Below are positions 8,547 through 34,491 of a stretch of DNA of 64,000 nucleotides, piece after piece. A program made the position numbers and the translations under genes. Source of the stretch: Planctomycetota bacterium (GTDB taxonomy: Bacteria > Planctomycetota > Phycisphaerae > Phycisphaerales > SM1A02). A model generated the notes under the pieces. It ran no database searches, was not told where the DNA came from, and saw only the letters and a list, made by a program, of their open reading frames with translations. Position 1 is the stretch's first letter, and the number at the start of each line of letters is the position of its first letter. The stretch spans positions 1 through 64,000 of the forward strand of contig VGXR01000007.1 of NCBI GenBank assembly GCA_016873255.1. Direction: 5' to 3'.

Positions 8547-9836
8547 TCAGCCCAGCCCGCCCTTCAGGTCGCGGCCGGAGAACCTGGCGCGCAGCTTGCG
8601 CATCACCGGGTCGTCCTCGCGCAGCGCCGGCGCCGGCTTGCCGTCGCGGCCGCCCGAGCGCTCCGGCATCGCCGGACGGTCGAGAAGCTGCTTGCGGCTC
8701 AGCGAGATGCGCTTGCGGTTGGCGTCCACGGAGAGCACCTTCACCTGCAGCACCTCGCCGACGGTCAGCACCTTCGCCGGCGTCGGGATGCGCTCGTGCG
8801 CCACTTCGCTCACGTGGATCAGGCCCTCGACGCCGGGCGCGAGCTCGACGAACGCGCCGAACTCGGTGAGCTTGGTGACGCGGCCGGTCACCGTGCCGCC
8901 GGCCTCGATCTCCTCCATGGCCGCCAGCGCCGGGTCGGCGATGGTCTGCTTGAGGCCAAGCCCGATCTTCACGGGCTTCGCCTCGCGGTTGAGCTTCAGC
9001 ACCTTCACCTGGACCACCTGGCCGAGCTTCACCACCTCGGACGGGTCCTTGATGCGCGTGTACGACATGTCGCCGATGTGGATCAGCCCGTCCACGCCGC
9101 CGATGTCGGCGAACGCGCCGTAGCTCTGGATGCTGGTGATGGTGGCGGTGCGCACCTGGCCCACCTCGAGCTCGGCGAGCACCTTGTCGCGCATGCGCGC
9201 GCGCTCCTCGAGGAGCACGGCCCTGCGGGAAAGCACCATGCGGCCCTTTTCCCGGCGCAATTCGATGATCTTGCAGGGGAACTTCTCGCCGAGGAACACC
9301 GAGATGTCCTCGATGTGGCGGATGTCCACCTGGCTCGAGGGCATGAACGCCTTGTGGTGCAAGACCTCCATGTCGAGGCCTCCCTTGTTCATGCCCACGC
9401 AGCGGGCCTCGACGATCATGCCGGCGCTGAGGCTGTCCAGCTCGCCCTTGTGCGTGGCTCCCGGGCGGCTGACCACCCAGAGGCCCTCGAACGGGTCGAA
9501 GCGCTCGTCGAAGAACTCGTGCTCCTCGCCCGGCTTCGGTTCCTCCGCGAACTGCGCCACCGGGCAGACGCCCTGTCGGTTGGGGCCGAACTCGATGAAG
9601 ACCTCGCCGTCATGGACGCGGAAGACCTTGCCCTTGCGGAGGACGCGCTCGCCCTTCACGGCGGCGCCTCGGCCGGCCGCGGAGCTGCCTTCCACCATCG
9701 CTTCGAGGCTCATGCCGCCGAGCGCCTCCTCGATCTCGCGCATGAGCTCGGCATCGAGCGCGGCGCGGTCGGGCGAGCCTGAGGGCGGAGGAGGGGTCGG
9801 GGTGGGGGTGGGGGCGGACGGGTTCGTCTGGTCCAT
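8547..9836 (-). CDS. rpsA: S1-domain RNA-binding protein (ribosomal protein bS1-like)
   Basis: 429 aa with four S1/OB-fold repeats: about 70-140 (divergent), 150-220, 230-305 and 312-385. The third and fourth carry the classic GAFADIGGVDGLIHIGDMS and GAFVELAPGVEGLIHVSEV cores. This is the usual form of bS1 in this kind of bacterium; it helps mRNA bind the 30S subunit. E. coli S1 has six repeats, so this one is short. The N-terminus is a Pro/Thr-rich low-complexity tract (PTPTPTPPPP). The ATG at 9836 was chosen because upstream sequence has no coding character; a TACCCT hexamer (9892-9897) lies about 55 nt upstream. Confidence 0.85.
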   Translation of the reverse strand: MDQTNPSAPTPTPTPPPPSGSPDRAALDAELMREIEEALGGMSLEAMVEGSSAAGRGAAVKGERVLRKGKVFRVHDGEVFIEFGPNRQGVCPVAQFAEEPKPGEEHEFFDERFDPFEGLWVVSRPGATHKGELDSLSAGMIVEARCVGMNKGGLDMEVLHHKAFMPSSQVDIRHIEDISVFLGEKFPCKIIELRREKGRMVLSRRAVLLEERARMRDKVLAELEVGQVRTATITSIQSYGAFADIGGVDGLIHIGDMSYTRIKDPSEVVKLGQVVQVKVLKLNREAKPVKIGLGLKQTIADPALAAMEEIEAGGTVTGRVTKLTEFGAFVELAPGVEGLIHVSEVAHERIPTPAKVLTVGEVLQVKVLSVDANRKRISLSRKQLLDRPAMPERSGGRDGKPAPALREDDPVMRKLRARFSGRDLKGGLG

Positions 9837-10088
9837 GGGGAGCCTGCGGAGGTTGCGCGTGCCCGCGGTTCCGGCCGCGGGCGAGCGCGAAAGGGTACCC
9901 AAACCGACGGGGAACCCGCACCCGTCGGCACGCGAATCCTCCCCTGAAGACCTCGCGAAGCCGGGGCCCGGGCCCCCCGGGGACCCGAGGGCCGGACGCG
10001 GTATTATCGCAGGGCTTTCGTCCGTGCGGACCCAAACGGCGCGCCGGCGGCAGAGCAACCCCTACCCAGTCAGGAGCCCACGGTTCAC
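9837..10088. promoter_or_regulatory. divergent intergenic region, rpsA-like / pilM-like
   Basis: 252 bp between divergent genes. On the minus strand TACCCT (9892-9897) could be the -10 for the S1 gene. On the plus strand TATTAT (10002-10007) could be the -10 for the PilM-like gene, leaving a leader of about 75 nt ending in an AGGAG ribosome-binding site (10072-10076). No good -35 is visible for either. Confidence 0.4.
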
Positions 10089-12221
10089 ATGGCAAAGGCA
10101 AAGGCAGCTTGGGGCATCGAGGTCGGCAGCGCGGCGGTCAAGGCCGTGCGCCTCGAGCGCGACGGCTCGGACATCCGGGTAGCGGACTTCATCGTCATCC
10201 CCCATTCGAAGGTCCTGACCACCCCCGACCTGAACGTCGAGGAGATGCTGCGCATGTCGCTCGGTGGGTTCATGGCGCAGAAGACCATCGAAGGCGCCGC
10301 CGTGGTGGTGGGTGTCCCCGGCAACGAGGGCCTCGCGCGCTTCGCCAAGCTTCCCCCCATCCCGAAGAAGCAGGTCCCGCCGACCGTGCTCTTTGAGGCC
10401 AAGCAGCAGATCCCGTTCCCGCTCGAGGAGGTCGAGTGGGACTACCACCTGTTCAGCTCCGACGATTCCCCCGAGTACGAGGTGGGCATTTTCGCGATTC
10501 TCAAGGAGAAAATCGCGCAACGGCTGTCGCTCTACAAGGAACTGCAGCTGCGTCCCACGGCCATGACCCTCGGTCCCATCGCCGTCTACAACGCGATGAT
10601 GTACGACCGGGACCTCGGCAAGGGCGAGAAGCCGGTCATCGCGTTCCTCGACATCGGCACCCGCGCCACGGACCTGGTGGTGATCCAGGCCGGCCGCGCG
10701 TGGATCCGCACCTTCCCGGTGGGCGGGCACCACTTCACCGAGGCCATCGCGTCGGCGTTCAACACCCCCTACGGCAAGGCCGACCGGCTCAAGGCCGAGG
10801 CCGCCACGCACAAGTACGCCAAGCAGCTCATGCAGGCCATGCGCCCGGTGTTCGATGACCTGCTGCAGGAAGTGCAGCGGTCGCTCGGGCACTACCAGTC
10901 GCTGCACCCGGACACCCCCGTGACGCAGGTGGTTGGGCTCGGAAGCACGTTCCGCATTCCCGGCCTCCGCAAGTACCTGAGCGACCAGCTGCAGGTCGAG
11001 ATCCGCCGCCTCGAGGAGTTCGAGAAGGTGAAGGTCGAGGGCAGCGCGGCATCGGACTTCGCGGCCAACGCGATGAACCTGGCCACGGCCATCGGCCTTG
11101 CCCTGCAGGGGCTCGGCATGACGGAGATCAGCACGAACCTCTCGCCCGTCTCCAACCTGCGCGAGCAGGTCTGGAGCCGCAAGGCGCGCTGGTTCGTGGC
11201 GGCGGCGCTGCTGATGTGCGCGGGTTCGGCGCTGCTCTTCTATCGCCCCGGCGGCTCGGTCGGGCCGGAGGTCGCAAGCGCGGTCACGCGTGCGGAACGC
11301 GAGGCGGACGGTCACAAGAAGCAGCTTGACGAAGCCAAGGCGTCGGCCGACGTCGGCGCCCGCGCCAACAACTTCCTGTTCACGCTCGAGGACCGCAAGG
11401 TCTGGCCGTGGCTCGTGGCAGACGTCAACGCGGCCATCGCCTCGGCGGGCCCGCAGGATGCCTTGACCGGTGCCTTTGACCCGGCCAATCCCCCGGTGCC
11501 GTACGCGCAGTGGCAGACCGTGGAACTCTCGGAGCTCTCGGGCCGCTACAAGCTGGCCACGGGCGGTGCCGCGCCCAAGCGCACCGTCGAGGTGACGATG
11601 CGCGTCATCGTGCCCCGCGACGAGAAGGCTGCCAAGGAGTTCGTGCAGCAGAGCGTCATCGGGTGGCTCAACAAGAACGCGGACCGCAAGGATGCACCGT
11701 ACGTCATCGTGATCCCCGAGAAGGGCATCGTCCCGCAGTTCGCCGCGCTGGGCGCCTCGCCCGATGCCGAGCGTCCATCGCAGGGCGGTTCCTCCGGCGG
11801 CAACGAGGAAGCGCCCCAGGAAGTGACGCAGGGCAGCGGTGGTTCCGCGGCCATGGGCAGCCGCAACACCTCGGGCGGGTCCATCAACCGATCCAAGGGC
11901 CAGCTCGGCGGGTCGGGCTTCGGGTCGACCGTCACCGCCGACGACCCCGCCATCACCGGCGAGGGCGGCGGATCGGGCGGCGGCGGCGCCGGCGGCAAGG
12001 GAAGCCGCAAGGCCGCCCGCGTTGCCATCAAGTCCACCGCGGCCGAGCCCGTCAACATCGATGCCGATGCGGCCATCCCGTCGGCGCCGAACCCGTATGC
12101 GGGCCGCGCCGCCACCACCGCCACCATCCGGTTCACCGTCGAACTGCGCCCGCCGGTCGGGCGCGAGATCGCCCCGGCCCCGGCCGGCGACGGCGCCACG
12201 CCCGAAGGAGAGCAGCAGTGA
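10089..12221 (+). CDS. pilM: PilM-PilN fusion, type IV pilus-like assembly protein
   Basis: 710 aa. Residues 1-345 are a PilM actin-like ATPase: WGIEVGSAAVKAV (8-20), the IPFPLEEVEWDY segment (108-119), DIGTRATDL (188-196) and the adenosine-side motif VVGLGSTFRIPGL (281-293). PilM normally sits in the cytoplasm and binds the N-terminal INLLP peptide of the membrane protein PilN. Here NLSP at 350-353 followed by basic residues and a membrane span (about 368-385) continue in the same chain, so PilN appears fused to PilM. The periplasmic remainder (386-710) includes a Gly/Ser-rich stretch. The next gene overlaps by GTGA. No secretion ATPase or secretin is in the window. Confidence 0.85.
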   Translation: MAKAKAAWGIEVGSAAVKAVRLERDGSDIRVADFIVIPHSKVLTTPDLNVEEMLRMSLGGFMAQKTIEGAAVVVGVPGNEGLARFAKLPPIPKKQVPPTVLFEAKQQIPFPLEEVEWDYHLFSSDDSPEYEVGIFAILKEKIAQRLSLYKELQLRPTAMTLGPIAVYNAMMYDRDLGKGEKPVIAFLDIGTRATDLVVIQAGRAWIRTFPVGGHHFTEAIASAFNTPYGKADRLKAEAATHKYAKQLMQAMRPVFDDLLQEVQRSLGHYQSLHPDTPVTQVVGLGSTFRIPGLRKYLSDQLQVEIRRLEEFEKVKVEGSAASDFAANAMNLATAIGLALQGLGMTEISTNLSPVSNLREQVWSRKARWFVAAALLMCAGSALLFYRPGGSVGPEVASAVTRAEREADGHKKQLDEAKASADVGARANNFLFTLEDRKVWPWLVADVNAAIASAGPQDALTGAFDPANPPVPYAQWQTVELSELSGRYKLATGGAAPKRTVEVTMRVIVPRDEKAAKEFVQQSVIGWLNKNADRKDAPYVIVIPEKGIVPQFAALGASPDAERPSQGGSSGGNEEAPQEVTQGSGGSAAMGSRNTSGGSINRSKGQLGGSGFGSTVTADDPAITGEGGGSGGGGAGGKGSRKAARVAIKSTAAEPVNIDADAAIPSAPNPYAGRAATTATIRFTVELRPPVGREIAPAPAGDGATPEGEQQ

Positions 12222-13660
12222 GTTCGCCGCTTGACAAACTCAAGGACAGCTTCGCCAAGCTGCAGTCCATCGGCAAGAAGGGCGGCGGTGGCGATGCGGA
12301 CTCCGCGCCGCAGGGCGGCGGCAAGATGGACCCGAAGGCCGTGCTTGCGTGGGTGAAGTCGCACCCGGCGATCGTGGCGTCGGTCGCGCTGATGGTGGTC
12401 GTGCCCGCCGCGGCGTGGTGGTTCGCCGGCGGAATCCATGCCGAGAAGGACGCGGCGGCGGCGGCCCGTGCGCAGAAGCACGGCGCGCTCGAGAAGTTCG
12501 AGAAGACCTCGTTCGAGCTGGCGCTTCCCGGGCAGGCCCCGCAGCAGCTGACGGGCGTGGTCAACGCTGCCACGGTCAAGCAGTACAAGGAGCTCACCGA
12601 GAAGTTCCAGGGCGACGCGCTGGCGATCCAGGAGGCTGCCATCGCGCGCAATCGCCGCGACCGGCAGGGCCTGGTGGCCGACATCAAGGTCACCCCCGAG
12701 AACAGCAACACCATCGCCGACCGTGTCTACGGCGCGGTCATCGCGCAGGCCAAGAAGGACCTCAAGCGCATCCGCGCCGGCATGCCCCCGTCGGACGAGA
12801 GCCTGCTCGACCAGTTGCAGCGCGCGCAGGACCAGTTCATCGCAACCGAGCGCAAGCCCGACCGCAAGTCGCTCAACGCCGAGCAGATCGAGCTGCTTCG
12901 CAAGAAGCTGGTGGAGAAGCGCCTGCAGCTCTACACCGACGCCGCGGCCGGCGTGTCGCTCTACGCCGACCTTGCCGACCTGGGGCTTCCGGCGTCGTCG
13001 GAGGAGGCAGGCACTCCGCCCTCCGAGTCGCGGATGTTCCTCTGGCAGTGGCGGCTGTGGGTGATCCAGGACACCCTCGATGCGCTGGCCTCGGCCAATG
13101 CGGCATCCAAGTCCGTCGTGGACGCGCCCGTCAAGCGGCTCGTCTCGCTGTCCGTCCGCGAGGACGCGCTGCCCAAGGCGGCCGCTCCCGCCGGTGGCGA
13201 AGCGGCCCCGCCCGCCGACGGCGCGCCAGCCGAGGGGGCCGCGGCTCCGGCCGAGGCTGCCGCGTTCCCGCCCATCGACCCCAAGCAGCCCGTGTCGTAC
13301 GACTTCGCCAAGTCGATGACCGGCCGCGTGCCCAATGCGCTCTACGACGTGCGGTTCGCCACCGTGCAGCTGGTGGTGGCCACCGAGCGTATCCCCGAGG
13401 TGCTCGACGCCATCGCGCGCCAGAACCTCATGACCGTGGTCAACGTGGACCTCCGGCCCGCCGACGCATTCGATGCGGCGGACGAGGGCTTCATCTACGG
13501 ACCGCGCCCCGTTTCGCAGCTGCGGCTGACCATCGAGTCGCTGTGGATGCGCCCGTGGGTCGCCAAGCTGATGCCGGCGGAGCTCCAGAAGCTGAAGGGC
13601 ACCGACGGACGCACCACCGATGACCCGGCGCCGGCGCCTCCTGCCGAGCCGACCACATGA
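12218..13660 (+). CDS. PilO-like inner-membrane protein of the pilus module
   Basis: 480 aa with GTG start, chosen because it overlaps the PilM-N stop by 4 bp and follows an AAGGAG site (12204-12209). A short basic cytoplasmic segment, one membrane span (about 51-70), a long charged helical region (about 75-270) likely to be coiled coil, an Ala/Pro-rich linker (about 320-350) and a C-terminal alpha/beta domain with VRFATVQLVVATERIPEVL. Span, coiled coil and small C-terminal ferredoxin-like domain is the layout of PilO/GspM proteins, which pair with PilN. Direct sequence similarity is too weak to assign the symbol. Confidence 0.65.
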   Translation: MSSPLDKLKDSFAKLQSIGKKGGGGDADSAPQGGGKMDPKAVLAWVKSHPAIVASVALMVVVPAAAWWFAGGIHAEKDAAAAARAQKHGALEKFEKTSFELALPGQAPQQLTGVVNAATVKQYKELTEKFQGDALAIQEAAIARNRRDRQGLVADIKVTPENSNTIADRVYGAVIAQAKKDLKRIRAGMPPSDESLLDQLQRAQDQFIATERKPDRKSLNAEQIELLRKKLVEKRLQLYTDAAAGVSLYADLADLGLPASSEEAGTPPSESRMFLWQWRLWVIQDTLDALASANAASKSVVDAPVKRLVSLSVREDALPKAAAPAGGEAAPPADGAPAEGAAAPAEAAAFPPIDPKQPVSYDFAKSMTGRVPNALYDVRFATVQLVVATERIPEVLDAIARQNLMTVVNVDLRPADAFDAADEGFIYGPRPVSQLRLTIESLWMRPWVAKLMPAELQKLKGTDGRTTDDPAPAPPAEPTT

Positions 13661-13700
13661 CCAGGCCTGACGCAGCAACCTCTGAAGGCGGAGCCACGCG

Positions 13701-15743
13701 ATGAAGCTCAAGGGAATCAACATTTTCGAGCAGCACGTCGAGAAGTTCGTGCTTGCCGCTGCGGTGCTCGGCGTGGCCGGCATCGCGGCGTGGCAGTTCC
13801 TCAGCGTGCCGATGGTCAAGGTCGGCAGCAAGACCCTCGCGCCGTCCGAGGTCGACGACGAGCTCGAGCGGAAGGCCAAGGCCCTCCAGGCCAAGCTCGG
13901 CGAGGACTTCAAGGGCGACGGCGTCGTGCGCATCCCGAATGACGCGGTCGCGACGGTGTCCGACGGGTTCCGCGCCAGCCTCTCGGCCGGCACCTCGCCC
14001 GTGCAGGCCCTGGTCGTGACGTCCCCGAACTTCAATGGCCTGCTCGTGGCCGGCAACGCCTCCGCATCCGACGTCTGGTACTACGTGCCGAAGGTCGCCG
14101 CGCTGCAGATCCGCGCCGTGCAGGAGACCGCCGACGCCCTGACCAAGGAGTCTGCCGAGGAGGCGAAGAAGGCATCGGCCGTGCTCGCGGCCCGTCCTGA
14201 CTTCGCGACCATCGATGGCCCGCGCGACGTGGTGTGGACCACCCCCGTGGCCCGCATCGACCTCAAGGCGCTGCGCGACGAGCTCGCGCGCTCCAACGCC
14301 GAGGCCGCCCCCCCGCAGCGGCAGATCCCCGGCGTGTGGTACCAGGAGACCCCGTACGTGGTCGACATGGTGTTCGAGCGCCGCGAGCGCACCGAGGGCG
14401 GATGGAGCGCGCCCAAGGTGGTGCCCGTCTTCGCAGCGCGCACCGAGGAGCTCGCGTTCCGCGCCAAGCTGGAGGGCGCCACCGCGGACCTTCGCGACGA
14501 GGTGTTCTCCCTCCTGGGCTCCGACGAGAACCAGAAGGAGATCCTCCAGCCGACCTTCTACGAGACCGTGAACTCTGCGTTCGTCTCGCCCACCGTCCTC
14601 GCGGATGCGGGGCAGGCAGGCGGCGCGCCGGTTCCCGGAACCGATGCCGGCGCGACGCGTCGCCGCATGCAGATGCAGACGCAGCTCCAGCAGAAGCAGC
14701 GCCGTGCCGAGTCCCTCCGCCTGGAGGTCGAGAAGCTCGGTGGGCTCTGGGACGAGGCTGCGGAGAAGCGGGCCGAGGAAGACCGCAAGCGCGACGAGAA
14801 GGAGCGCAAGGATGCCGAGAAGGGCGGCGGAAAGACGGGCGGCGGCGCCGGCGGCGGCGGTCCGGGCGGCGGTCCCGGCGGGTCGATGAGCGGCAAGAAC
14901 AACGCGCAGTCGGACAACGCCGAGCGCGATGCCAAGCGCCAGGCCGCCGAGCGCAAGTCAAAGTCCGCCGTCCTGCGCCGCATCTACGCCGAGATCGCCG
15001 ACCTCGAGAAGGAGCTCGGCCTCGCATCGACGGTCCCGACGGCCAACTCCAAGGCCGTCAAGGCTCCTTCGCTCGCTTCGATGGACGAGCTCCTGGTGTG
15101 GGGCCACGACCTCGAGGTGAAGCCCGGACAGACGTACCAGTACCGCTGCGTCGCCCGCGTCTACAACCCGTTCTTCGGCAAGGGCAACCAGCTCGTGAAG
15201 GAGCAGGAGGCCACGGGCCTGCCCGCGGCATTCACCATCGACTCCGCTGCGAGCGAGTGGTCGTCGCCCATCACCGTCTCGCCCGATGTTCGCTACTTCG
15301 TGACGCGCGCCATCGTGGGCGACGGCCCCATGGGCACCGGATCCGCGCAAGTCGAGGTGTACAAGCTCCTCGGCGGCCAGTGGCGGCGCGCGGAGCTGAG
15401 CGTGCATTCGGGCGAGCGCATCGGTCGCCCCGACGACCGCGGCGGTGCGATGGTCGACTTCGGCACGGAGTACTTCCTCGTCGACGTGATCGAGGACCTC
15501 GACCCGGATCGCTCCGGGGGCTCGTCGCGTGAGCGCCGGCTGGGCATGGCTGTCATCGCGCCGATGTCGGGGCAGGGCGCCGAGATCCGCATCCCGGCGA
15601 TGGACCTGGACAACGTCGACCGGCTGCGCCTCAAGGAGCAGGCCGATGCAGCCAAGGGCGCTCCCGCAGCGGCAAGCGCGGACAACGCCGCGTCGCCCAA
15701 GGGTGGCGGTCCCGGCGCGCCCAAGGGGCCTGGCGCGGGCTGA
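13701..15743 (+). CDS. third membrane protein of the pilus-like module
   Basis: 680 aa, family not recognised. One N-terminal membrane span (about 16-34) after a short cytoplasmic piece, so the bulk is periplasmic. Residues about 315-375 are a strongly charged coiled coil (Gln/Arg/Glu/Lys-rich), interrupted by a glycine-rich loop near 375-395 and resuming to about 435. The last third has beta-rich segments such as VKPGQTYQYRCVARVYNPF. It lies 40 bp after the PilO-like gene, is followed by a strong hairpin, and so is the last gene of the operon. By position it could replace PilP or GspC, but I see no motif that proves it. Confidence 0.6.
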   Translation: MKLKGINIFEQHVEKFVLAAAVLGVAGIAAWQFLSVPMVKVGSKTLAPSEVDDELERKAKALQAKLGEDFKGDGVVRIPNDAVATVSDGFRASLSAGTSPVQALVVTSPNFNGLLVAGNASASDVWYYVPKVAALQIRAVQETADALTKESAEEAKKASAVLAARPDFATIDGPRDVVWTTPVARIDLKALRDELARSNAEAAPPQRQIPGVWYQETPYVVDMVFERRERTEGGWSAPKVVPVFAARTEELAFRAKLEGATADLRDEVFSLLGSDENQKEILQPTFYETVNSAFVSPTVLADAGQAGGAPVPGTDAGATRRRMQMQTQLQQKQRRAESLRLEVEKLGGLWDEAAEKRAEEDRKRDEKERKDAEKGGGKTGGGAGGGGPGGGPGGSMSGKNNAQSDNAERDAKRQAAERKSKSAVLRRIYAEIADLEKELGLASTVPTANSKAVKAPSLASMDELLVWGHDLEVKPGQTYQYRCVARVYNPFFGKGNQLVKEQEATGLPAAFTIDSAASEWSSPITVSPDVRYFVTRAIVGDGPMGTGSAQVEVYKLLGGQWRRAELSVHSGERIGRPDDRGGAMVDFGTEYFLVDVIEDLDPDRSGGSSRERRLGMAVIAPMSGQGAEIRIPAMDLDNVDRLRLKEQADAAKGAPAAASADNAASPKGGGPGAPKGPGAG

Positions 15744-28080: not shown

Positions 28081-28150
28081 CCCGGCGCCTCAGGCCCGGC
28101 GCCTCAGGCCCGGCGCCTCAGGCCCGGCGCCTCAGGACCGGTGCCTCAGG
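28081..28150. repeat. tandem 14-bp repeat between convergent genes
   Basis: Four perfect copies of CCCGGCGCCTCAGG (28081, 28095, 28109, 28123) followed by a variant ACCGGTGCCTCAGG (28137-28150) and a partial copy. Every unit contains TCA, a TGA stop on the minus strand, and the last full unit supplies the stop codon (28146-28148) of the DegT-family gene. The array fills the gap after guaA. Confidence 0.9.
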
Positions 28151-29336
28151 ACCGGTGCGCACCGCCGGTGCGCGCGAGTGCCACCTCGAGCACGTCGCAG
28201 ACCGTCTCCACGTCCTCGGACGTCATCGTGTTGTAGAAGGGCAGGGCGATGACCCGTGCCGCGGCGCCCTCGGCCACGGGGAACTGCCCGGGCTCGGTGC
28301 CCACCAGCGTCCGGACCTGCGGGAGGAGCGATGCCGCCGGGTAGTAGTTGGCCGCGCCGATGTCCTGCCGGTGCAGCACGCCGATGATGCGGTCGCGGTC
28401 GTCGGCGGTGAAGCGCGTCGACAGGCGGACCACGAAGTTGGCCCAGCTGACGCCGGCGCCGTCGGGCACCGTCGGAAGGACGATGTCGGGGTTGGCGGCC
28501 AGCCGCCGCAGGTACGCGTTGGCCACCTCCTGGCGCCGGGCGATGGTGGCGTCGAGCCTGCGCACCTGCGCGCAGCCGAGGGCTGCCGCAAGCTCGCTCA
28601 TGCGCGCGTCGTAGCCGCCGAGGGTGGCGTGCTCGATGATCGCGCCGATGTCGCGGGGCTGGCCGGCGAAGCTCATCCGGTCCACCCGGCCCTGGCTGCG
28701 CAGCGCCCGGCATGCCGCGGCGAGGTTGTCGTCGTGCGTGACCACCATGCCTCCCTCGGCCGTGGTCACCTGGCGGTTGGTCCAGAAGCCGATGCAGGCG
28801 ATCCGGCCGAAGCGGCCGGCGTTGTCGTCGCCGAGGGTGGTGCCGAGCGCCTCGCTCGCGTTCTCCACCATCGGGATCTCCATCCGCGAGCAGAGTGCGA
28901 TCAGCTCCGGGAGCATCGCCGGATTGCCGAAGGTCAGCGCCGCGAGCATGGCCTTGGTCTTCTTGCCGATCCGCCGCGCTGCCTCCGCGGGGTCCATGTT
29001 CAGGCTGAGCGGGTCGACGTCCACGAAGACCGGCCGCGCGCCGACGTTGAGCACCGAGTGCGCCATGCCGCTGAAGCCGAAGGCGGGCACCAGCACCTCG
29101 TCGCCGGGCCCGGCCCCGACCGCGCGGAGCGCGACCTCGATGGCCACCGCACCGGAGGCCACGCCCACCCCGAACGGCCGGCGCGTGCGTTCCGCCACCA
29201 GCTGCTCGAACTCGAGGAGCCGCGGGCCGAGGGTCAGCGCGCCGCGGCGCAGGGTCTCCGCCACCAGCTCGATGTCCTCCTCGAGGATCTCGGGCTTGTT
29301 CAGCGGGATCACGGTGCTCGCCGTCCGGTCGGTCAT
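28146..29336 (-). CDS. DegT/DnrJ/EryC1-family protein lacking PLP catalytic residues
   Basis: 396 aa with the full fold of sugar aminotransferases (fold type I): IPLNKPEILEEDIELV at the start, GDEVLVPAFGFSGMAHSVL, and the TTAEGGMVVTHDD block. The residues that make the family PLP enzymes are changed. The Schiff-base Lys, normally in NKQ(I/V)TTGEGG, is Arg188 (WTNRQVTTAEGG). The Asp that pairs with the pyridine nitrogen is Asn159 (VENASEALG). The phosphate-binding GT(S/A) is GAV (62-64). The frame is open and full length, so it is not a decayed gene; a non-catalytic, sensory or altered role is likely. It overlaps the upstream gene by ATGA. Confidence 0.82.
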   Translation of the reverse strand: MTDRTASTVIPLNKPEILEEDIELVAETLRRGALTLGPRLLEFEQLVAERTRRPFGVGVASGAVAIEVALRAVGAGPGDEVLVPAFGFSGMAHSVLNVGARPVFVDVDPLSLNMDPAEAARRIGKKTKAMLAALTFGNPAMLPELIALCSRMEIPMVENASEALGTTLGDDNAGRFGRIACIGFWTNRQVTTAEGGMVVTHDDNLAAACRALRSQGRVDRMSFAGQPRDIGAIIEHATLGGYDARMSELAAALGCAQVRRLDATIARRQEVANAYLRRLAANPDIVLPTVPDGAGVSWANFVVRLSTRFTADDRDRIIGVLHRQDIGAANYYPAASLLPQVRTLVGTEPGQFPVAEGAAARVIALPFYNTMTSEDVETVCDVLEVALARTGGAHRS

Positions 29337-30886
29337 GGTCCCTTCGCTCCTTGGGCGGGTGGCGCCACGGCCAGGCGCTCGATTGCACCATCGGCCAGTC
29401 CCTTGGCGCGCGCGTAGAACCACGCGGCCTGCAGCGCATGCGAGGGGTCGAGGTCGCCGCCGCCTGCGCCCGCCCGTCCGAGGACATCGAGGTCGGCATC
29501 CGTGAGCGGAGCTCCGCGCCGCGCAAGCGCGAGGGCCGCAAGGCCCTCGCCGGCACGGGGAAGGGAGCCCCGGCGGGCCCGTGCGATCTCCTGCGCCTGC
29601 GGTGCCTGGCTGTCGCAGATGCCCTGCATGGCCGCGACGAGGAGGTCGGGCTCCGCGGCAAGGCGTTCAAGCAGCGCCGCGGCCGCGGCCGGGTCGGCCT
29701 CGACGAGCTCTCGCGCGAGTCCGGAGATGAGCGCCGCGGTCGGCCGATCATCGGGGTCGGACGTCTCCAGTCGCGTGAGGAGGTGCTTCCAGACCGGCAG
29801 TGCCTGCTCGGGCGGCAGTTCCGTGGCGCGCACCATGGCCCACTCCGCGCTTGCCTGGTGGCCGGACTCGAGGAGCCCGATCAGGGCGTCGGCCGGCGGT
29901 GCCTTGGAGGCAAGCGATGCTCCTGCCGTGGCGATGGCCTCCAGCGCGGGAGTGCCGTTTCGAACCTCGTCGAATGCCGTCGGCGGCACGCCGCGCTCGG
30001 CGTTGGCGAGGAGCTGCATCGCGGAGCGCATCAGCGCAAGCTGGGACCGGTTCGCCTTCGCCCGGGCGCGCCACGCCTCCACGCCGAGCGGCGTGTCCAG
30101 CCGGATGGCGGCGCCGATGGCGGCCACGCGCGCGTCATCTGACCCGCCCTGGGCATCGGTCAGCTCGAGGAGCCTGCGCGCCGCGGGCTTCACGTCGAAC
30201 AGCATGGCCGCCTCGGCGATGGCGCGGATGGCCTCGTCGCGGTCCACCGGCGCCAAGGCCGCGATCCGTGCGCGGCACGCGCCCCAGGCAGCCGCCTTCG
30301 GGTCCGCGTCCACGCCGTTGCCGCCGGCCGCAAGGAGCAGCGCCGCGAACCCGGCGGCGATTGCGTCCTTCGAGGCCGCGATCTCGCGCATGCGCGAGGC
30401 ATCCCACGGCTCGCCGCGGCGCGACAGCTCGGCCATCAGCGTCAGCTGCGAGGCTTCCGAGAGGTCCTTGCAGGCCAGGAGCGGCACGATGGACGTCTCG
30501 CGGAGGAGGCCCGAGACATTCGCCTCGCGCACCACGTCCGCGCGCTCGTCGGCCGAGGCCAGCGCCGCGAAGAGCTGCGCATCAACGCCCTTCTTCGAGA
30601 GGAGCGCCTGGCCGAGCACGCCGTACACCCGGGTTAGGGGCCCGGCGCCGCGCGCCATGGCACGGAAGAGCGCATCGGCCGAGGGGTCGCCGGCGCCGGC
30701 GAGGTTGGCCGCGAGCGAGCCGATGCGCGGGTCATCGCCGTCGAACGCCTCGACGACGGCATTCACCGATGCCTTCCCGAGATCGACCTTCTCGTAGAAC
30801 TGCGCTCGTGCCGTGCTTGTAGGAAGCGCCACGGCGAGCGACGCGGCGAGCGTTCGCAGGACGTGGGCGGCTCGTGCCGTGGCCAT
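29333..30886 (-). CDS. secreted alpha-helical repeat protein
   Basis: 517 aa, family not named. A signal peptide (about residues 1-29, ending STARAQ) is followed by helix pairs rich in Ala and Leu throughout (for example DPRIGSLAANLAGAGDPSAD and ASKDAIAAGFAALLLAAGG), as in HEAT- or TPR-like solenoids. No catalytic motif or membrane anchor is visible. It lies 9 bp after the DnaA-like gene and overlaps the DegT-like gene by 4 bp, so all three form one operon, an unexpected mix of cytosolic and exported products. Confidence 0.7.
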   Translation of the reverse strand: MATARAAHVLRTLAASLAVALPTSTARAQFYEKVDLGKASVNAVVEAFDGDDPRIGSLAANLAGAGDPSADALFRAMARGAGPLTRVYGVLGQALLSKKGVDAQLFAALASADERADVVREANVSGLLRETSIVPLLACKDLSEASQLTLMAELSRRGEPWDASRMREIAASKDAIAAGFAALLLAAGGNGVDADPKAAAWGACRARIAALAPVDRDEAIRAIAEAAMLFDVKPAARRLLELTDAQGGSDDARVAAIGAAIRLDTPLGVEAWRARAKANRSQLALMRSAMQLLANAERGVPPTAFDEVRNGTPALEAIATAGASLASKAPPADALIGLLESGHQASAEWAMVRATELPPEQALPVWKHLLTRLETSDPDDRPTAALISGLARELVEADPAAAAALLERLAAEPDLLVAAMQGICDSQAPQAQEIARARRGSLPRAGEGLAALALARRGAPLTDADLDVLGRAGAGGGDLDPSHALQAAWFYARAKGLADGAIERLAVAPPAQGAKGP

Positions 30887-30895
30887 CCGCGGAGT

Positions 30896-32344
30896 CTATC
30901 GGGACGCCCGGGTGCGCCGTTCCACGCCGCGCTTCACGGTCTCCACGAGCTCCCGCACGCTGCGGGACGCCGGTGCCCGGTCATCGGCCGGCAGTTCCTC
31001 GCCGCGGCCGAGCATGTCGCGGACGCGCTTGGCGGCCGCGTGCGCGCTCGAATGCGCGTTGCGCCCGAGGTGGCGCGCGATCTCCGGGAAGCTCAGCGTG
31101 GTCATCTCGCGGGCGAGGTGCACCACGACGCCGCGCGCGAGCACGACGCGCCAGTGGCGCCCGCTTGCCGCGAGGTCGTCGCGGCTGACGCCGAGCTCGT
31201 CGCAGGTGGCTTCCACGATCGCCGCGATCCGCGGCGGCGCGCCGCGCACGGCCGCGTCGCCGAGCCCGAGCGCGCGCTCCACGAGGCTGAGGGTGGCGAT
31301 GCCGCCGAGGTCCTCGAGGAGGAGCGCGGCCGCGATGCGCGCGAGCGCACCCTCGATCTCGCGCACGCTGCCGATGGCACGGTCGCCGATCATGCGCGCA
31401 GCCGCCGGCTCGAGCGCGATGCCGCGCTCCTCGGCGATGCGGGTGACCAGCGCCTCGCGGGTGCTGCGGTCGGGGGCCTCGACCTGCACCACCATGCCTG
31501 CGAGCATGCGGCTGACCAGCGCCTCGCTGAAGGACCGGAGCGCGCGGGGGTGCGCGTCAGTGACGATCGCGATGCGCGCGCCGCCCAGGCCGATGGCGTC
31601 GATCGTGTGGAGGAACTCCACCTGCGTGGCGCCCTTGTTCGACAGGAAGTGGACATCGTCGATGGCCAGGAGGTCGAGCTTGCGCACCTTGGCGCGGAAT
31701 ACCTCGATGGTGCCGCCGCGGACCGCCTGGATGTAGTCGTTGGTGAACTGCTCGCCGGTGGTGTAGCGGATGCGCTCCGGCGGGTGCAGCTCGCGACGCC
31801 GCGCGCACAGGCCCTGCAGGAGGTGCGTCTTGCCGACGCCGCAGCCGCCGTGCAGGAGGATGCCGCGGATGCCACCGAGCTCGTCCTCGGCGAGCCGCCG
31901 CGCGGCCTCGTAGGCGATGCGGTTGGACTCGCCGACCACGAAGTCCGCGAGCCGGCGCCAGCGCGGCTGGTCCCGGCGCGCGGCCGGCACCAGGGCCACC
32001 TCGCGCGGGGCAGGGGAGGCGGCGGCGTCCGGCGCCACCAGCCCCGGCGCGTCGAGCACGGTCACGGCCACCGACTCGAGGCCCACGTCGGCGGCGACCG
32101 ACGCGAGGTCGTCGCGGAAGTTGCGCTCGATCCAGTCCGCCGCGAACCTGCTCGGGGCCATGACCTCCAGGCAACGGCCGTCGATGCGAAGCCGGGCGGG
32201 CTCCGCGAACCACATGCGGTAACGAGCCGCGCCGATCCGGGCTGCCAGGCGGCGCTCGATGGACGACTCGGTCGGGATGTCTGCGTTGCTGCGGCGTGCG
32301 TCGGGTGCGGCGTTCGTCTCGAGGGTTGCGCTGGCCGTGGACAC
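30896..32344 (-). CDS. dnaA: DnaA-like replication initiator with altered DNA-binding signature
   Basis: 482 aa with all four DnaA domains. Domain I: ARYRMWFAEPARL to WIERNF (about 38-76). AAA+ domain: Walker A GGCGVGKTH (166-174), Walker B LLAIDD (225-230), sensor II VREIEGAL (327-334). Domain IV: the basic helix region, then GRNAHSSAHAAAKRV (427-441), where most DnaA proteins have GGRDHTTVLHA. Asp433, His439 and both threonines (E. coli numbering) are replaced. A tail of about 38 residues follows. GTG 32344 begins domain I at the usual distance. No dnaN or gyrB is adjacent. It may be the only DnaA with shifted specificity, or a paralogue. Confidence 0.82.
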   Translation of the reverse strand: MSTASATLETNAAPDARRSNADIPTESSIERRLAARIGAARYRMWFAEPARLRIDGRCLEVMAPSRFAADWIERNFRDDLASVAADVGLESVAVTVLDAPGLVAPDAAASPAPREVALVPAARRDQPRWRRLADFVVGESNRIAYEAARRLAEDELGGIRGILLHGGCGVGKTHLLQGLCARRRELHPPERIRYTTGEQFTNDYIQAVRGGTIEVFRAKVRKLDLLAIDDVHFLSNKGATQVEFLHTIDAIGLGGARIAIVTDAHPRALRSFSEALVSRMLAGMVVQVEAPDRSTREALVTRIAEERGIALEPAAARMIGDRAIGSVREIEGALARIAAALLLEDLGGIATLSLVERALGLGDAAVRGAPPRIAAIVEATCDELGVSRDDLAASGRHWRVVLARGVVVHLAREMTTLSFPEIARHLGRNAHSSAHAAAKRVRDMLGRGEELPADDRAPASRSVRELVETVKRGVERRTRASR

Positions 32345-32798: not shown

Positions 32799-33773
32799 TC
32801 ACTTGACACTCGCCGCGGGCGCACGGTAGAGCGACGGCTGCGCCACGAAGGCCTCGCGGCGGCGGACCGTGCGGAACCCGAGTCGCGCATAGAGCGCAAC
32901 GGCCGGCGTGTTGCGCTGGTCCACGGCGAGCGCCATCACGCGCTCCGGACGTTGCTGCACCAGGCCAAGGCCGTGCAGCATCAGTGCACGACCAAGTCCG
33001 CGCCCGCGCGCCTCCGGCGCCAGGCCGAGGTAGACCACTTCCACGGAGTCGGTCGCGTGCGACGGTGCCAGGAGCAGCGCACCGACCGTGCGTCCGTCGC
33101 GGAAGGCGAGTGTCCAGAGGTCGGGGTCGTGCTCGCCGGCGGCGAGGTGACCCTCGAGGATGTCGCTCGTGGTCCGCATCTCCGCAAGTCCCGGGCAGTC
33201 GAGCGTCTCGACGTAGGTGCGCGCGAGCAGTTCCTCGAGCACCCCGCGTTCGGATTGGTGCCACGGGCGCAACGAGATGCCGTCCGGGCAGGGTGCCTGC
33301 GCGGGGGCCGCGTCCCGAAGCGGCCGCTCCATGTAGTCGAGGGACGCGAGGTGCCGCAGCCCGCCCGCCGTCCACGCCCGGGAGCGCAGTGCCTCGCTCG
33401 GTGCCGAGAGCGCCTGGATCAGGCGGACGTCGGGCAGGTGCGAAGCCTCGGCCAGCACGAAGTCCACCAGTCGGCCGACGGAGGCCGCGTTGCCGTGGTC
33501 CGTGGGGGCAGTGGCCATGAGGAGCGCCGAACGCCCCGGGTGCGGGACGAGCAATGCCGCCGCCTCGAGTTGGCCGTCCTCGCCGTGCGCGGTCCAGAGA
33601 AGCGACAGGTCGATGCCCTGCGCCTCGGCTCGCTGCTCGAACCCCGGGTGGGCCACGGTCCCCGGGCCGAGCACGGATGCAAGGGCCTCTGACCGCACGC
33701 TGCCCACCGCCCGCCCCAGCCGCAGCGGCGGGGGCGCGGGTTCTCCGAGACCGAAGAGGCCGCGAAATGACAC
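32799..33773 (-). CDS. GNAT-family N-acetyltransferase, probably two-domain
   Basis: 324 aa. The C-terminal half (about 165-320) is a clear GNAT domain: acetyl-CoA pyrophosphate loop RGRGLG (256-261) after VVYLGLAPEA, and NTPAVALYARLGF (288-300). The N-terminal half has a weaker alpha/beta pattern that could be a degenerate second GNAT, as in MshD-type proteins. Substrate unknown. I chose GTG 33773: a TACGCT hexamer ends 6 nt upstream and the divergent gene's promoter then stays outside the reading frame. ATG 33821 would add 16 residues and overlap the divergent start codon. Confidence 0.8.
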   Translation of the reverse strand: MSFRGLFGLGEPAPPPLRLGRAVGSVRSEALASVLGPGTVAHPGFEQRAEAQGIDLSLLWTAHGEDGQLEAAALLVPHPGRSALLMATAPTDHGNAASVGRLVDFVLAEASHLPDVRLIQALSAPSEALRSRAWTAGGLRHLASLDYMERPLRDAAPAQAPCPDGISLRPWHQSERGVLEELLARTYVETLDCPGLAEMRTTSDILEGHLAAGEHDPDLWTLAFRDGRTVGALLLAPSHATDSVEVVYLGLAPEARGRGLGRALMLHGLGLVQQRPERVMALAVDQRNTPAVALYARLGFRTVRRREAFVAQPSLYRAPAASVK

Positions 33774-33779
33774 GGGAAG

Positions 33780-33785
33780 AGCGTA
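33780..33785 (-). promoter_or_regulatory. -10 hexamer TACGCT, near-leaderless
   Basis: TACGCT with a 6-nt spacer to the GTG at 33773 of the GNAT gene. Confidence 0.4.
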
Positions 33786-33806
33786 ACCGCGGCCGATTGG
33801 GATCCG

Positions 33807-33812
33807 TAGAAT
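33807..33812 (+). promoter_or_regulatory. -10 hexamer TAGAAT, leaderless geometry
   Basis: TAGAAT with a 7-nt spacer (33813-33819) to the ATG at 33820 of the secreted protein gene. Confidence 0.55.
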
Positions 33813-33819
33813 CCGGGTC

Positions 33820-34491
33820 ATGTCTTCTTCGCTTCCGTCGCTGGCCCGAGTCGCCTCGATTGCCGCTGCCGCCGCCTTCGCAGGTGTCCTCGCGGGGGTC
33901 GGGCCCGTGGCTCCGATGCAGCAGTCCGGCCCGGCTTCCAAGGCCGCGGACTCGCTCATCCCCAAGGTGAAGCCCGCCACGCCCAACGACCTCGACTTCC
34001 GCCCGGGCGCCCTGCGCCTGGTGACAGACTCGGAGACCGGGTCGCGGTTCTGGGTGTTCACCTACGTGATCGCCAACAAGACCGGCAAGTCGCAGCGCTT
34101 CTCGCCGCGGTTCGAGCTTCTCATGGGTGACGGCACCGTCCTGGAGGCAGGCCGCGACGTGCCGGTCGATGCCGCACGGCGCATGCAGTCGGCGGCCGCC
34201 GGGCCGCGCGCGCTCGACCAGTTCCAGGTGATGGGGGAGATCCCGGACGGCGAGTCGAACGCCCGCGAGGGCTTCGTGGTCTGGCCGGCCAGGGGCGATG
34301 CCAAGGAAATGACGCTCTTCGTGGCGGGAACCAGCGCGGCCTTCGACCGCCGCACGGACCCGGCCACCGGCAAGGAAGGCCTGATCCGTCGGACCTGGAG
34401 CCGCCGTTACAGCGTGTCCGGAAGCACCGACCCGCGGTCGTCCGCCGAGGCATCGTTCGACCCGATCGGCGATGCCTGGATCATGCGCTGA
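33820..34491 (+). CDS. secreted protein of unknown function
   Basis: 223 aa, family not recognised. An N-terminal signal sequence (about 1-32, with VASIAAAAAFAGVLAGVG) precedes a mature domain that looks beta-rich (ALRLVTDSETGSRFWVFTYV, ANKTGKSQRFSPRFELL), reminiscent of an immunoglobulin-like domain. The phrase IANKTGK...FELLMGDGTV is the type of sequence seen in planctomycete exported proteins. No cysteine or anchor. It is the only gene of its transcript, divergent from the GNAT gene by 46 bp. Confidence 0.65.
   Translation: MSSSLPSLARVASIAAAAAFAGVLAGVGPVAPMQQSGPASKAADSLIPKVKPATPNDLDFRPGALRLVTDSETGSRFWVFTYVIANKTGKSQRFSPRFELLMGDGTVLEAGRDVPVDAARRMQSAAAGPRALDQFQVMGEIPDGESNAREGFVVWPARGDAKEMTLFVAGTSAAFDRRTDPATGKEGLIRRTWSRRYSVSGSTDPRSSAEASFDPIGDAWIMR

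Follow-up and report, generated by a model that had tools for sequence, protein, structure and literature searches.

The window, a 64,000-nucleotide stretch of planctomycete DNA (contig VGXR01000007.1), carries on its minus strand a single open reading frame that translates into 396 amino acids with zero internal stops, in agreement with an earlier note on this DNA, and the plus strand of the same interval (28146-29336) is likewise open. The start of this gene (referred to as P0002) shares 4 nt with the stop of the gene upstream, and a plausible ribosome-binding site precedes it. P0002 matched Pfam family PF01041 over residues 17-383 (E=1.5e-93), and its AlphaFold2 model (pLDDT 92.4) found its best PDB matches in ArnB and perosamine synthase (TM-score 0.87), so that both profile match and fold-type-I structure place it by homology in the DegT/DnrJ/EryC1/StrS family. 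Against the NCBIfam PseC model, P0002 scored 233 bits and its lysine-bearing orthologues 331-353 bits (cut-off 423.5), and the search for the function of the parent in NCBIfam thus yielded PseC and ArnB matches below threshold only. The locus and its neighbouring genes are listed in Table 1, in which K-type denotes the lysine-bearing relatives and Arg clade the 22 orthologues grouping with P0002.

Table 1. Features of the DegT locus, in coordinates of the window
Feature	Position	Strand	Basis or state
DegT-fold gene (P0002), lysine-less, 396 aa	28146..29336	-	ORF, PF01041, AlphaFold2 model, PDB matches
Residues 298-389 of the C-terminal domain, conserved across the K, Arg and eroded forms	28170..28445	-	Entropy comparison
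Asp243 codon, in place of Asn at the amino-donor carboxylate position	28608..28610	-	Alignment column
Flexible loop over the active site, residues 217-231	28644..28688	-	Newly invariant D219, R220, S222, Q226; invariant R217, G231
Arg188 codon, in place of the Schiff-base lysine	28773..28775	-	R in all 22 Arg-clade rows, K in all 34 K-type rows
Asn159 codon, in place of the Asp under the pyridine nitrogen	28860..28862	-	N 16 / H 6 of 22 in Arg clade; D in 33/34 K-type rows
Ala63 codon, in place of the phosphate-binding Thr	29148..29150	-	Arg clade A 11 / G 7 / S 4; T in 32/34 K-type rows
Upstream repeat-like protein, probably secreted, no Pfam family	29333..30886	-	ORF, profile search, gene order
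Second dnaA-like gene of the conserved string	30896..32344	-	DnaA_N, ATPase and C-terminal domains
GNAT acetyltransferase gene, member of the same string, start uncertain	32799..34061	-	Gene order, profile search

The replacements of the Schiff-base lysine, the pyridine-nitrogen Asp and the phosphate-binding Thr that the earlier note had read from P0002 stood up to alignment, in which Arg188, Asn159 and Ala63 fall in the Lys, Asp and Thr columns of the K-type relatives. The Asp and Lys columns are conserved across the solved sugar aminotransferases (PMC5936713), and neither of these hallmarks of a DegT-family PLP aminotransferase was found in any Arg-clade sequence, all 22 having Arg at 188 and Asn or His at 159. 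A fourth substitution, overlooked in the earlier note, affects residue 243. When its column is matched through the alignment to the solved sugar aminotransferases, the equivalents are Lys241 in ArnB and Asn in PseC and perosamine synthase, at a position that binds the carboxylate of the amino donor (PMC5936713). Asp occupies this position in 22/22 Arg-clade sequences and in 9/9 sequences of the eroded clade described below, and in 0/34 K types, 33 of which have Asn.

Arg188 is invariant among the 22 orthologues, which span eight genera, and the codons CGC, CGA, CGT and CGG are all used for it. Every same-genus orthologue found that covers the site has both Arg188 and Asn159 (78-83% identity, many independent assemblies), and substitutions shared in this way rule out a sequencing error or a local mutation. 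In the orthologue alignment for which the earlier note had called, the close orthologues all had Arg188, and Lys together with Asp appeared only in more distant positional orthologues, which indicates an old in-place replacement rather than a local mutation. Although fold and family membership of P0002 are intact, it is hardly credible that it works as an ordinary PLP aminotransferase without the lysine, as the Lys, the N1 aspartate, the phosphate-site Thr and the amino-donor residue are all altered together. Compared with ArnB, PseC and GDP-perosamine synthase, P0002 is alike in fold, domain order and length, but differs in these four replaced positions and in an active-site loop that has become newly fixed. 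The aminotransferase annotation of the lysine-less genes is probably wrong.

Most checked genomes of the order have in common the gene string obg-rpmA-x / GNAT-dnaA-repeat protein-DegT. Two dnaA genes are present in most checked relatives, the second one neighbouring DegT, and the divergent DegT members were confirmed near this same second dnaA gene. The repeat-like protein evolves fast, its sequences being about 30% identical within the family, and yet its gene immediately precedes DegT in nearly every genome of that family. Outside the order the string was absent and no conserved DegT neighbourhood was found, so that the gene order does not have to reflect a functional link to DegT. A K-type query returned a match in 118/150 genomes of the class, nearly always in single copy, and the K-type sequences listed from in and beyond the order all have the Lys and nearly all the Asp. 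Positional orthology and a class-wide, single-copy parent with Lys and Asp together argue that an inherited core gene was altered in place, and against a stray paralogue. Within the order, the positional Lys- and Asp-bearing orthologues of the Phycisphaerae occupy the same place as P0002; they are about 40-52% identical to it and have the C-terminal signature residues in common with it, but they possess the full PLP machinery and a variable active-site loop.

The lysine-less form occurs in 18 genera of one Phycisphaerales family, its sequence sources including MAGs. In a quick tree built without the active-site columns, in which the eroded rows have long branches, 32 lysine-less sequences formed a clade (SH-aLRT 98) that consists of genus g3, nine eroded sequences from seven genera and the 22-member Arg clade (SH-aLRT 99). 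Genus g3 is intermediate, having Arg and Asn but keeping Thr63, and the eroded sequences carry S, G, D or R at position 188, mostly G, S or D. Two further genera, g19 (Thr/Ala) and g48 (Ser), were placed outside this clade. A single clade of all 35 lysine-less sequences was nevertheless not rejected (p-AU 0.51); several independent losses were thus not upheld, and the tree is consistent with a lysine that may have been lost once. Elsewhere, an orthologue in genus g51 (L076:7814-8980) keeps the Lys, with the phosphate-site motif (GSAAAA) and Asn243 already lost, and is possibly the start of another loss. Another sequence, from family f5 (L109:1504-2646), keeps Lys188 and has Val at the N1-aspartate position.

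Among the closest pairs, dN/dS (Nei-Gojobori) was 0.02-0.08 in the Arg clade, 0.07-0.10 in the K types (plus one low-divergence pair at 0.20) and 0.14-0.21 in the eroded clade; since pairs were few and dS was often high, the ranking alone is used, in which the Arg clade lies not above the K types and below the eroded clade, a sign of strong purifying selection on it. The clade of P0002 has thereby the marks of a selected pseudoenzyme, catalytic residues having been lost with the open frame and purifying selection kept, and a pseudogene is ruled out by the frame, dN/dS and the synonymous codon turnover at Arg188. That the gene is a decaying relic heading for loss might be read from the existence of the eroded clade, with its dN/dS values and a residue 188 that is mostly G, S or D, and from one genome (G062) in which the only DegT match lies on a different contig from the dnaA gene. 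However, the Arg clade combines its dN/dS values with a frame that is intact throughout and with a gain of invariant residues, and the eroded members too keep fold, frame, gene order and C-terminal conservation (pLDDT 91.4 for the AlphaFold2 model of one of them). Decay is therefore a very improbable account of the gene, and for the Arg clade it is already contradicted.

Several of the gained residues lie in the active-site loop. Mean entropy over residues 214-232 was 0.90 bit in the Arg clade vs 2.26 bits in the K types, in a comparison of unequal, related samples (an equal-size comparison was also made) that is soft for the loop because the alignment of K-type with Arg-type loops contains gaps. 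The four newly invariant loop residues of Table 1 are variable in the K types, E67 and F223 are near-invariant in the Arg clade and replace variable or different K-type residues, and H322 is a further new residue of the Arg clade that, like E67, has reached near or full fixation. The loop is the lowest-confidence internal loop of the P0002 model, and its equivalent in Spr1654 adjoins the substrate diphosphate and the amino donor (PMC5936713). The earlier note's suggestion of a selected, non-aminotransferase role gains support from the shared substitutions, the very low dN/dS and these newly invariant residues.

In the eroded clade, pocket and loop are no longer conserved, whereas the C-terminal stretches stay almost at the conservation of the K types, which the paralogues do not. 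Over residues 298-327, 353-368 and 369-389, entropy was 1.00, 1.01 and 1.13 bits in the eroded rows and 0.81, 0.70 and 0.78 bits in the K rows, the samples again being unequal and related; the C-terminal stretches of the paralogues gave 1.7-1.8 bits. The orthogroup has, in addition, a signature of R53, E153, R178, R323 and H324 that few if any paralogues share; about half of the Arg-clade sequences still have H324.

The best-known lysine-less relatives, ColD, E1 (RfbH) and SpnQ, use His and PMP (PMC8987622), and they resemble P0002 in their fold and in a PLP lysine that has been naturally replaced. P0002 might be a PMP-dependent enzyme of this kind, with Arg188 acting as the catalytic His. Active lysine-less DegT relatives do exist (PMC8987622), and the Arg clade mostly retains the aromatic residue at 88 and retains Glu162 and Glu194. 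The five E1/RfbH relatives that were examined from the same phylum, however, have His and keep Asp159, Ser63 and Asn243, whereas the P0002 clade has Arg and is changed at all three sites, being without Asp159 and Asn243 throughout and mostly without a hydroxyl at 63 (Ser in four). Arg, moreover, shuttles protons poorly at a pH close to neutral. Because lysine-less E1 relatives retain this PMP site, ColD/E1-type chemistry is disfavoured and appears unlikely for P0002, and the analogy to ColD drawn in the earlier note did not hold as a mechanism.

A lysine-less subunit could also heterodimerise with a Lys-bearing DegT paralogue, given that in DegT proteins the active sites are located at the interface of the dimer (PMC5936713) and that SPT1, without the PLP lysine, pairs with the lysine-bearing SPT2 (SPT1/LCB1 with SPT2/LCB2; PMC6148460). 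The genome of P0002 does encode two Lys-bearing DegT paralogues, but both are merely 34% identical to P0002 and located elsewhere, and one of them is ArnB-like, lies in an arn-type operon and is missing from many lysine-less genomes. Strict thresholds nearly always gave one match per genome, so no paired close paralogue was seen. P0002 resembles SPT1/LCB1 in being related to PLP enzymes, having no lysine and yet being maintained by selection (PMC6148460); it differs in that no paired close paralogue was seen, and we consider such a heterodimer improbable, if slightly less so than the PMP-dependent enzyme. ArnB orthologues (>=59% identity) were found in 16/32 lysine-less and 0/24 lysine-bearing genomes; as these counts amount to at most two independent contrasts, no functional replacement by the ArnB paralogue is deduced from them. 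An arn-type operon was observed in a planctomycete at about 8900-15700 of locus L196 (G000 C3:52000-71000), its open reading frames, judged by eye, comprising ArnB and ArnC-like, ArnA-like, ArnD-like and ArnT-like proteins.

Taken together, these sequence comparisons lead us to favour, with a probability of roughly 0.55, the reading that P0002 has become a pseudo-aminotransferase independent of PLP, in which the ligand pocket is remodelled and the C-terminal domain retains a non-catalytic role. Its ancestor would have been the PLP-dependent DegT-family aminotransferase, probably one acting on sugars, that occurs class-wide in single copy, and an in-place descendant of it would have lost the PLP machinery in one Phycisphaerales family. 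P0002 would then neither transaminate nor bind PLP covalently as an internal aldimine, and it may still bind PMP non-covalently. Less certainly, and judging by conservation, the old pocket of the Arg clade might still bind a ligand through Arg188, Asp243 and the loop at 217-231 that has become conserved; a nucleotide sugar or some other anion is a candidate, and the Arg-clade protein would then be a sensor, a scaffold or a PLP-free enzyme. The invariant loop could instead serve dimer stability or a partner protein. More tentatively still, the Arg clade might specifically be a PLP-free enzyme or sensor, in which Arg188, Asp243, Glu67 and the 217-231 loop would form a ligand or catalytic site that is new among the DegT proteins described so far. 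The C-terminal domain would keep an older non-catalytic interaction, and this interaction is proposed as the reason why the eroded orthologues have been retained.

Searches of the openly licensed literature found no description of such a lysine-less clade. The known cases in which DegT proteins have naturally lost the PLP lysine are mainly Lys-to-His changes that leave the cofactor in place. At the DegT locus of these bacteria, one fixed genome position shows every stage, from the active-looking parent through the intermediate genus g3 to the Arg clade and a retained eroded clade. As all of these stages are present among living relatives, the transition from an enzyme to a selected non-enzyme is directly testable at this locus.
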